A DNA stretch of 64,000 bases from Lentiprolixibacter aurantiacus (GTDB taxonomy: Bacteria; Bacteroidota; Bacteroidia; Flavobacteriales; Flavobacteriaceae): the NCBI RefSeq assembly GCF_026241225.1, contig NZ_JAPFQP010000001.1, positions 1,488,001 through 1,552,000 on the forward strand, read 5' to 3'. The notes under the pieces are model-generated. The model did no database searches and was not told the origin of the DNA. It saw nothing but the letters and a program-made list of their open reading frames with translations. The translations under genes and the position numbers were made by a program. How positions within the stretch are numbered: position 1 is the stretch's first letter; the number at the start of each line of letters is the position of its first letter. Below are positions 28,697-41,739 of the stretch, piece by piece.

Positions 28697-30094
28697 TCAA
28701 ATCTGTTCTGCCAGTTCCAGGGCCCGATTCAGGGCGCCAAGTTTGTTGTAAGTTTCCTGAAGTTCCATTTCAGAATCTGAAGCTGCCACCAGCCCGGCAC
28801 CAGCCTGATAATGCAGGAGATGATTTTTGCTCAGGAAGGTTCTGATCATAATAGCGTGATTAAAATCGCCATCAAACGCCATAAATCCTATGGCTCCTCC
28901 ATAGTAATCCCTGTTGTTCTTTTCGTATTTCTCAATAAGTTGCATGGCCATATGCTTGGGAGCCCCGCTCAGGGTTCCTGCAGGAAAAGTATCGGCAACA
29001 ATCTTCATGGTGGGTACATCCGGTTTGATCTTTCCCGTGACTTTAGACACCAGGTGAATTACATGAGAGAAATACTGTACTTCCCGGTAGTTGTCCACAT
29101 GAACCATATTCCCATGCCTGCTCAGGTCGTTGCGGGCCAGATCTACCAGCATTACATGTTCGCTGTTTTCCTTATCGTCTTCAGTCAGTTTCTTGGCCAG
29201 GCGGGCGTCTTCCTCGTCATTACCAGTACGTTTAAAAGTGCCCGCAATTGGATGGATTTCTGCCTTGCCTTTCTGCACCACTAACTGCGCCTCAGGGGAA
29301 CTTCCGAATATCTTAAAGTTACCGTAGTCAAAGTAGAAGAGGTAGGGGGAGGGGTTTATGGACCTGAGGGCCCGGTAAACATTAAATTCATCACCCTTGA
29401 AACCCTGGGAAAAACGACGGGACAACACCAGTTGAAAAACGTCACCCCTCTTGCAATGGACTTTTGCCTGCTCCACCAGTTCCATGTACTCTTCATCGCT
29501 AAGGTTAGAAACTGCCTGTCCGTCCTTGGTGAAAGAGTAAGAAGAAAAAGTCCTCACACTTAACAGCTGTTCCAGGTCTTCCAGGTTAGGCTCACTTTCA
29601 TAGCAATGCGCAAAGAGGTAAGCTTCATTCTTGAAATGGTTTATGGCGATAATATTTTGATAAACAGCATAATATACATCCGGGATGCCCAATTCGCCTG
29701 ATTTTTTCTTCAGGTCGATATCTTCAAAATAACGAACCGCATCATAGGCCATGTACCCAAAAAGTCCGTTGTTGATGAATTTAAATCCGTTTTTATCTAC
29801 TTCAAATTTCTGACTAAACTGATGTATAAATCGGGGTACATCGGTTTTGCTGTCTACAGGGGTCTGGATAGAAGTTCCGTCCGGGAAGAATTCGGTAATG
29901 GTTTCATCTGCGATCTGTATCCCGGCTATGGGGTTGCAGCAGATATAGGAAAAGGTATTGTCGTTGGCCCGGTAATCGCTGCTCTCAAGCAGGATGCTGT
30001 TGGGAAAGCGATCCCTGATCTTCAGGTATACACTAACCGGGGTAAGTGTATCGGCTAAAATCTGCTTGTAATGGGTCTTTAATCTGTAACGCAT
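28697..30094 (-). CDS. trpE: Anthranilate synthase component I
   Basis: TrpE forms anthranilate from chorismate. The 465-residue protein has the tryptophan feedback motif LLES at 35-38 and the conserved chorismate-binding stretches GTFKRTGNDEEDA and PAGTLSGAPKHMAMQ. The frame runs further upstream to 30157, but that part reads through the attenuator hairpin, so ATG 30094 is the real start. It is the first structural gene of the trpEGDCFBA operon, about 22 nt below the attenuator. Confidence 0.95.
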   Translation of the reverse strand: MRYRLKTHYKQILADTLTPVSVYLKIRDRFPNSILLESSDYRANDNTFSYICCNPIAGIQIADETITEFFPDGTSIQTPVDSKTDVPRFIHQFSQKFEVDKNGFKFINNGLFGYMAYDAVRYFEDIDLKKKSGELGIPDVYYAVYQNIIAINHFKNEAYLFAHCYESEPNLEDLEQLLSVRTFSSYSFTKDGQAVSNLSDEEYMELVEQAKVHCKRGDVFQLVLSRRFSQGFKGDEFNVYRALRSINPSPYLFYFDYGNFKIFGSSPEAQLVVQKGKAEIHPIAGTFKRTGNDEEDARLAKKLTEDDKENSEHVMLVDLARNDLSRHGNMVHVDNYREVQYFSHVIHLVSKVTGKIKPDVPTMKIVADTFPAGTLSGAPKHMAMQLIEKYEKNNRDYYGGAIGFMAFDGDFNHAIMIRTFLSKNHLLHYQAGAGLVAASDSEMELQETYNKLGALNRALELAEQI

Positions 30095-30116
30095 CTTTGT
30101 CTTGGGTCTAAAAATC

Positions 30117-30148
30117 AAAAAGGCTTGTCGTGGAAGACAAGCCTTTTT
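30117..30148 (-). terminator. trp attenuator terminator
   Basis: On the minus strand a 13-bp perfect stem (AAAAAGGCTTGTC / GACAAGCCTTTTT) closes a 6-nt loop and is followed by a further T-rich stretch. It sits between the Trp-rich leader peptide and trpE, where an attenuator is expected. Confidence 0.9.
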
Positions 30149-30164
30149 GTACAGCAATACAGGG

Positions 30165-30177
30165 GTCTCTCACGACA
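30165..30177 (-). promoter_or_regulatory. Candidate antiterminator segment overlapping the leader stop codon
   Basis: On the minus strand this 13-mer (TGTCGTGAGAGAC) can pair with 30138-30126, which is the loop and top of the attenuator stem. Twelve of 13 positions pair, including one G-U, with one A-C mismatch. A ribosome stalled at the Trp codons would leave it free; one at the stop codon would cover it. The role is inferred from pairing alone. Confidence 0.55.
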
Positions 30178-30226
30178 TTATCTGTTCGTTTGTCCACCAC
30201 CAGTTATTTGCTGTTGTTTTGTTCAT
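30170..30226 (-). CDS. trpL: trp operon leader peptide
   Basis: The 18-codon frame reads MNKTTANNWWWTNEQIMS, with three consecutive Trp codons at 9-11. Such a peptide is the sensor in ribosome-mediated attenuation: scarcity of Trp-tRNA stalls the ribosome and prevents the downstream terminator from forming. The ATG lies just 5 nt after the promoter -7 box, so the transcript should start almost at the start codon. A strong terminator hairpin follows 21 nt after the leader stop codon. It is too short for standard gene callers. Confidence 0.9.
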   Translation of the reverse strand: MNKTTANNWWWTNEQIMS

Positions 30227-30231
30227 CTGGT

Positions 30232-30262
30232 CAAAGATAGAAAGGAATTTCAGAAATCCAAA
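30232..30262 (-). promoter_or_regulatory. trp operon promoter
   Basis: On the minus strand TTTG (30262-30259) is followed after exactly 19 bp by TATCTTTG (30239-30232). This is a full match to the Bacteroidota -33/-7 consensus. Predicted start is about 30228. Confidence 0.8.
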
Positions 30263-41539: not shown

Positions 41540-41612
41540 ACGGGTGTAGCTCAGTTGGTAGAGCACTGGTCTCCAAAACCAGGTGTCGGGAGTTCGAGTC
41601 TCTCCTCCCGTG
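41540..41612 (+). tRNA. tRNA-Trp (anticodon CCA)
   Basis: The 73-nt cloverleaf has anticodon loop CTCCAAA, D-arm GCTC/GAGC and discriminator G. The acceptor stem ACGGGTG/CTCCCGT has a T-T mismatch at position 6-67. CCA follows directly in the DNA (41613-41615). Confidence 0.95.
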
Positions 41613-41739
41613 CCAAGGAAACTGCGGAAAACTAAGGTTGGTTTTTCATTTCGAGAACGCATAATCTTCACAATTTCCGTGTTATAATGAGCACAACGAA
41701 AGCCACAGCGCTTTTGAGAATATCAAACTGAAGAATACT

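Follow-up and report, generated by a model that had tools for sequence, protein, structure and literature searches.

The 64-kb stretch of Lentiprolixibacter aurantiacus DNA analysed here (64,000 nucleotides, hereafter the window) carries a trp operon that is preceded by a short frame with tandem tryptophan codons, which raises the question of whether a ribosome translating this frame could set the transcription of the operon, and by what contacts. The trp attenuator of E. coli consists of Trp codons in a leader peptide, competing hairpins and a terminator before trpE, and its competing segment takes the 5' arm of the terminator. The element in the window is like it in the Trp codons, the competing hairpins, the terminator ahead of trpE and, as proposed here, the manner of working. 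It differs in the contact, since the part shared by relatives comprises the terminator loop and the tip of the 3' arm, reached by a segment (S) that overlaps the stop region of the leader frame. We consider it very probable that the element is a ribosome-mediated transcription attenuator of the trp operon, with S acting as a loop-seizing antiterminator and with a start of transcription that leaves the leader frame nearly leaderless.

A tandem-Trp leader frame and a terminator lie directly ahead of trpE

Read along the minus strand, the order of features is a yceI-like gene, its terminator, a promoter, five bases, the leader frame, a terminator and trpE. The element occupies 30262-30116 of this strand, directly ahead of trpE (30094-28697, ATG at 30094), the first gene of trpEGDCFBA, an operon that extends to 23740. 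The terminator of the yceI-like gene (30303-30271, −19 kcal/mol, z −3.69) has a U run that ends at about 30265, just 5' of the promoter. The Bacteroidota-type promoter (30262-30232) was found by pattern match where the earlier note had placed it, with TTTG at 30262-30259, a spacer of 19 nt and TATCTTTG at 30239-30232. The same pattern has 2 matches in the window against a chance expectation of 0.96, which is not significant by itself, and promoter significance from the window alone was rejected as evidence.

Sequence and gene calls confirm the 18-codon frame with three consecutive Trp codons and trpE downstream that had been reported. The frame, MNKTTANNWWWTNEQIMS plus stop, occupies 30226-30170 (ATG 30226-30224, TGA 30172-30170), and a pattern search places the three Trp codons (TGG x3), the putative stall site, at 30202-30194; in the window TGGTGGTGG has 1 match against 0.52 expected, again not significant alone. 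The minimum-energy fold has an outer leader hairpin (5' strand ACAGCAA, 30214-30208; 3' strand UUGCUGU, 30157-30151). By folding, a strand 3' of the Trp codons, ACGA (30189-30186), can sequester S through UCGU (30175-30172), weakly here, with a duplex of −3.8 kcal/mol. S itself (UGUCGUGAGAGAC, 30177-30165) overlaps the leader stop codon and is assigned as the antiterminator segment from conservation, pairing, a partner test and folding. Its target (30132-30126), assigned from alignment pairing and folding, consists of loop CAC and 3'-arm tip GACA.

The terminator of the element folds into a 14-bp stem (5' arm 30149-30136, 3' arm 30129-30116) with loop 30135-30130 at −20.7 kcal/mol (z −7.45), followed by a U run, and its arms covary in relatives. 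The terminator stem and T tract of the earlier description are confirmed, with the stem corrected from 13 to 14 bp. A tandem-Trp leader frame before the operon and a predicted intrinsic terminator between leader and first gene, as a ribosome-mediated trp attenuator has them, are both present. A tRNA-Trp(CCA) gene lies at 41540-41615, about 11 kb from the attenuator, probably by coincidence.

The element is a member of the Bacteroid-trp RNA family

The element is less new than the earlier note implied. Positions 30246-30136 match Rfam RF01692 (Bacteroid-trp) with 54.1 bits against a gathering cut-off of 49 (E-value 0.00099 over the window, 1.4e-5 over 901 bases), and the attenuator is a member of this catalogued RNA family. 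Bacteroid-trp RNA is described by Weinberg et al. 2010 (PMC2864571), Rfam terms RF01692 a tryptophan peptide leader, and for F. psychrophilum the RNA is likened to E. coli attenuation (PMC6414381). The window resembles the family by its score above the gathering cut-off, with many consensus-stem pairs flagged as non-standard in the alignment; the Rfam model ends at the 5' arm of the terminator, whereas the window has the terminator and the S:loop pairing, both of which lie outside the model. A description of S:loop pairing in RF01692 was not found in the open-access literature searched, which is weak evidence that it is unpublished. What our analysis adds to the family is a segment that is independent of the reading frame, keeps a constant distance from the Trp codons and would disable the terminator via its loop and 3' arm. 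This offers a concrete testable switch for a family whose mechanism is not spelled out in the literature found.

At E 0.1, RF01692 is present in 33 of 37 genomes of the window's own family (f1, which we take to be Flavobacteriaceae) against 4 of 23 other genomes in the order. The TrpE of a same-genus relative (G002) is 95% identical to that of the window. At the same threshold 331 of 397 genomes of the family carry the RNA (240 above the cut-off), and at E 0.3 a draw of 395 genomes from the class yields 61 with a match (18 above the cut-off). Conservation of the WWW frame in relatives, on which the earlier note had staked its reading, was borne out: 80 loci were selected by TrpE, three are cut by contig ends upstream, and a TGGTGGTGG search found WWW within 600 nt upstream of trpE in all of the remaining 77.

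All routes together gave 243 loci, 231 with a Trp leader and terminator and 215 of these distinct, of which 170 make up the f1 set (two Trp codons and a terminator required; 110 from Rfam-model loci and 60 by TrpE alone). WWW occurs in 167 of these 170 leaders, a count for which the leader finder had itself required WW. L113 was excluded from the set, the script having assigned a wrong leader, and its true leader was read by eye; a hand-picked subset of 74 leaders forms the alignment A1. Twelve of the 243 loci gave no leader and terminator in the automated pass: five have an attenuator before an inserted gene, two (L017, L146) show an attenuator by eye, three (L089, L123, L128) end at contig ends, and L034 and L195 remain. 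In five genomes an extra gene stands between an intact trp attenuator and trpE, at L063, L064, L067, L075 and L076 (about 1168-1459); that of L063 has a GIY-YIG domain (PF01541), and the other four are similar by eye. Of 217 loci covered by an earlier pass, 198 have trpE next to the leader on its downstream side, 11 have trpD and 7 have trpB, and at 1 the gene is unassigned. These gene counts, together with the layout classes and shuffle z given below, rest on a first terminator finder, which allowed one mismatch and picked wrong hairpins (for example at L097), and carry its error.

Control of the operon by a regulatory protein, a T-box or an RNA that binds Trp, in place of a ribosome on the Trp codons, is hardly credible. 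The locus has no match, at E-values up to 1, to RF00513 (the E. coli-type Trp_leader of Rfam), to a T-box or to any other relevant Rfam family, and both the WWW in all 77 TrpE-selected upstream regions and the fixed distance from Trp codons to S (below) speak against such control. We found no direct support for it; two invariant low pairs of the terminator stem, described below, could mean recognition by something.

A segment at the leader stop is complementary to the terminator loop

Pairing of 30177-30165 with 30126-30138, as claimed earlier, was confirmed by eye at 12 of 13 positions, one of them a G-U, with an A.C mismatch at 30170/30133. In the window this 13-nt pairing contacts the 5'-arm tip, the loop and the 3'-arm tip, and the part common to relatives is UGUCGUG (30177-30171) with CACGACA (30132-30126). 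The proposal that the competing segment targets the loop is supported, with the amendment that the family-wide contact comprises the loop together with the 3'-arm tip. Within single genomes the complementarity exceeds that of shuffles by only about 2 sd (with the first terminator finder, mean z 2.0, and 46% of 204 loci with z above 2), so the case for pairing has to rest on conservation.

The S motif UCGUGA, complementary to UCACGA of the loop and 3'-arm tip, is present in 154 of the 170 leaders and in 56 of the 60 TrpE-selected ones. In 98 leaders its TGA serves as the stop codon; in 29 S falls within the frame but in another phase, and in 27 entirely beyond the stop. The distance from the last Trp codon to the start of S is 17-20 nt in every one of the 154 (18 in 119), and across the 170 leaders the stop comes 2-10 codons after the Trp run. 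From these positions S does not look as if it were kept for its coding value, and it is frame-independent. An alternative is that S is kept as coding sequence or stop context, the loop complementarity being incidental and some other pairing bringing about antitermination. The 98 of 170 leaders in which its TGA is the stop codon would fit this, as would a motif that varies so little that two-sided changes are few; however, the other 56 S-bearing leaders have S out of phase or past the stop, S and loop have changed together in a few lineages, and shuffling of the leader abolishes the predicted switch (below). We regard this alternative as highly improbable.

In a MAFFT alignment of the 170 leaders, made blind to pairing, S and the loop with the 3'-arm tip form standard pairs in 1,073 of 1,190 cells (90.2%). 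The G that precedes S and would give a seventh pair is found in only 74 of 154, which leaves a family core of 6 bp. In A1 90.7% of cells are paired against 6.6-55.8% in slid controls; within-column shuffles of A1 keep 90.4% paired, and the percentage proves little because the motif is nearly invariant. In the covariation check suggested in the earlier note, the pairing is conserved and a few lineages have changed on both sides; the motif is near-invariant, and the covariation score of A1 is 0.034, compared with 0.026 for shuffles. L243 (GUCGCAA with UUGCGAC) is the sole source of the two cells of A1 that changed on both sides. Two-sided changes, which are the informative cases, are also seen in L137 and its sister L113 (CUGUGA with UCACAG) and in L197 compared with L019 and L161 (GCGA/UCGC against GUGA/UCAC), there extending into the 5' arm. 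RNAalifold on A1 found the terminator only.

When leaders were confronted with own and foreign terminator partners, 13 divergent types scored 14.77 against 12.51, a result reached by 77 of 20,000 permutations, and with 7 greedy groups the figure was 123 of 20,000. The swap gave no support for L030, L113, L154, L172 and L192, where 4 to 12 of 12 foreign leaders were equal or better; the leader of L113 was misassigned in this test. Single-linkage grouping of the terminators merged nearly all of them and gave no signal (3,323 of 20,000), and was replaced by the greedy grouping.

The hairpin that sequesters S is likely to be part of the switch, on mixed support from sequence comparisons. Duplexes of the strand after the Trp codons with its own S scored −6.17 against −3.64 when shuffled, with 40 of 130 at 5% or better, and against swapped partners the own duplex was beaten in 0 of 5,000. 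In leaders with an A after S the own partner did no better than a foreign one (−5.33 and −5.89), and the sequestering pairs are formed in 64.1% against 61.6% in the slid control.

Terminator stem and layout of the contact

Distinct trpE loci, 185 in all, were classified with the first terminator finder and are subject to its error. The best leader duplex is confined to the loop and 3' arm at 131 of them, involves the loop and both arms at 34, covers the loop and 5' arm at 18 and contacts nothing but the 3' arm at 2. A competing segment that pairs with the loop and 5' arm, such as GAACAGC with GCUGUUC, is found in several other families of the class. Within the stem of A1 four tip pairs never vary and four lower pairs vary with matching two-sided changes; S could explain the invariance of the tip, since the 3' strand of the tip would have two partners. 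Two further low pairs (A1 columns 107-108 with 126-127) show no variation in any of the 74 rows, yet S reaches no further than the tip and loop, and we found no reason for this. The exact stem sequence is almost confined to the trp site: it occurs in 16 of 40 genomes, and at 17 places because one genome has it twice.

Folding with a masked ribosome predicts a position-dependent switch

The emerging RNA was folded with a ribosome footprint masked, which reached 15 nt upstream and 16 nt downstream of the first base in the P-site codon. At 6 exposed nt of the 3' arm, the mean terminator probability over the 170 leaders was 0.06 with the ribosome stalled at Trp, 0.93 with the ribosome at the stop and 0.91 with no ribosome. 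A switch (a change above 0.5) was predicted for 161 of the 170 leaders, leaving 9 with none, against 47 of 1,020 leader-shuffled sequences; it was predicted for 57 of the 60 TrpE-selected leaders and, outside the set, for 38 of 45 leaders (other families and L113) against 11 of 270 shuffled. When the ribosome was slid along the leader, the mean of the 170 showed antitermination that began with the first Trp codon in the A site and persisted over a further five codons; at the sixth, as S became covered, termination rose abruptly. Thirteen of the 170 leaders, including L002 and the near relative L060 (0.37 each), were predicted not to terminate without a ribosome.

The window gave values of 0.00 when stalled, 0.81 at the stop and 0.94 without a ribosome. 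Termination is also low there at the five codons before the Trp run, so the model does not single out the Trp codons in the window. Two further points against an S switch at this locus are the A.C mismatch in the S:loop pairing and the weak sequestering hairpin (−3.8 kcal/mol).

The prediction depends on how much of the terminator has emerged. In 43 leaders the stalled terminator probability was 0.02-0.22 with 6 nt of the 3' arm exposed, 0.17-0.55 with 7 nt and 0.72-0.92 with 8 nt, the range reflecting the assumed edge of the ribosome. At equilibrium, then, exposure of 8 or more nt of the 3' arm is enough for the terminator to win, and with 7 nt the result varies with the ribosome edge assumed. 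Since the switch is seen only at about 7 nt or less, antitermination would have to be kinetic. About 14 nt of RNA are held within the polymerase, and with this length the decision would fall in the regime of 6 nt exposed. A competing antiterminator that depends on ribosome position is found in silico only, itself dependent on the length of exposed RNA.

Proposed mechanism

In the mechanism that we propose, RNA polymerase would start 0-2 nt before the leader AUG and a ribosome would begin on an almost leaderless RNA. When Trp-tRNA is ample, the ribosome would reach the stop codon and cover S, and the terminator would form. When Trp-tRNA is scarce, it would stall on one of the three Trp codons and leave S free, at the same time covering or breaking the leader structures that would otherwise sequester S. 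S could then pair with the emerging loop and 3'-arm tip of the terminator, mimicking the tip of the 5' arm, and the terminator would be incomplete by the time the polymerase passed the U run. A leader without a ribosome would fold on itself and usually end in termination. The attenuator is supported by its anatomy, by conservation, by the frame independence of S, by the fixed distance from the Trp codons to S and by some two-sided changes. Ribosome-mediated attenuation with a stop-region segment as antiterminator, the central claim of the earlier note, finds computational support likewise in the frame-independent conservation, the pairing, the partner test and the folding with a masked ribosome.

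The start of transcription is predicted to be nearly leaderless

Many F. johnsoniae promoters have 4 or 5 nt from the −7 box to the start site (PMC6847099), and in F. psychrophilum the box lies at −12 to −5 (PMC9723704). Five bases separate box and ATG in the window, which by the F. johnsoniae rule predicts a 5' UTR of 0-1 nt, or of 0-2 nt with one base of slack, and hence a start at 30228-30226. A near-leaderless start, which the earlier note had put at 2-3 nt before the ATG, is accordingly likely from promoter spacing, and the prediction is shortened to 0-2 nt.

The spacing is constant among close relatives. The window's clade on a quick TrpE tree comprises 34 rows (SH-aLRT 96), one of which (L089) is without upstream sequence; the other 33 (27 by script, 6 by eye) all have 4-6 nt from box to ATG, 30 of them exactly 5. 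The same box, TATCTTTG, stands exactly 5 nt 5' of the leader ATG in 49 loci, duplicates among them, and L137 has a further ATG at 1 nt. Of the 170 leaders, 86 have a spacing of 4-12 nt, 74 one of 14-22 nt and 5 a longer one, with 5 unreadable, and short (up to 9 nt) and long spacing are separated by four changes on the tree (71 rows scored). Judged from these spacings, the short form is kept in the window's clade, is not family-wide and is not part of the mechanism as such. In the window's own genome TTTG-N3-6-ATG frames containing WW numbered 52, as opposed to 23 in a reversed control; by eye only the trp leader fits.

We also weighed the same attenuator on a transcript that starts well upstream, either because polymerase reads through from the yceI-like gene or because a promoter overlaps the terminator of that gene, with the ribosome initiating in the way usual for the phylum, where Shine-Dalgarno sequences are absent and leaderless mRNAs are a small minority. 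Leaderless mRNAs make up 5.5% in F. psychrophilum (PMC9723704), and 87% of predicted F. johnsoniae transcripts have leaders of more than 10 nt (PMC6847099). Such a start would also be compatible with a promoter pattern that by itself is at chance level and a start position that is only predicted, with the 14-22 nt from box to ATG in 74 of 170 family leaders, and with the AG, rather than the commoner CA, before the ATG of the window. It is opposed by the strong terminator that ends at about 30265, just before the −33 element, and so leaves little room for another promoter, and by the constant spacing of all 33 readable clade rows. We judge an upstream start unlikely.

The near-leaderless reading points to a clade in which the frame of a regulatory peptide seems tied to the start of transcription. 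Because an untranslated leader is predicted to terminate, the start might even serve as a second input, trp expression in the clade hinging on the efficiency of leaderless initiation and the antiterminator being a kinetic-only decoy of the 5' arm; this extension is speculative and, in our estimate, quite improbable. In the open-access literature searched we found no description of a kinetic 5'-arm decoy layout for trp attenuators.

Leaderless leader frames are not new, being known for trpL of Sinorhizobium meliloti and some Streptomyces leader peptides. The attenuator RNA rnTrpL of S. meliloti has its 5' end at the ATG of the leader frame (PMC7298713), a precedent for a leaderless trp sensor, though in another phylum and with an RNA and peptide that also act in trans. 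Leaderless leader peptides of Actinobacteria, LeuL of Streptomyces lividans among them, are likewise described (PMC8079986); LeuL is alike in being transcribed leaderless, but other amino acids are concerned there.

Other amino-acid leaders

In F. psychrophilum, amino-acid operons are reported to be preceded by signs of attenuation through leader peptides, and hisG to have a 5' element (PMC9723704). The window's own genome has a his leader (L247, contig C2, about 1190-1350), in which a GTG 6 nt after the box-like TAATTTTA is followed by MKTNNTHHHFYTCTQAR, a terminator and hisG, and which by the same spacing reasoning would also be nearly leaderless. In this genome and in relatives the his leader is like the trp leader in its HHH codons, its terminator before hisG and its box-near GTG start. 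It differs in the competing segment: in 9 of 12 relatives, and by eye in the window's genome, this contacts mainly the loop and 5' arm. L247 has no Rfam match at gathering score, and no leader was seen before ilvD in the same genome.

Elsewhere in the class, other families have Trp leaders ahead of trp genes other than trpE, as judged by the best downstream tblastn match: a trpB-like gene at L139, L141-L143, L151, L152 and L160, and a trpD-like gene at L155, L156, L158, L159, L163-L165, L171, L172, L175 and L176. Tandem RF01692 matches occur in two genomes of another family, G037 (contig C26, 75-332; L030, L190) and G052 (contig C169, 4762-5045; L191), and at L030 a second Trp-rich frame is visible by eye.
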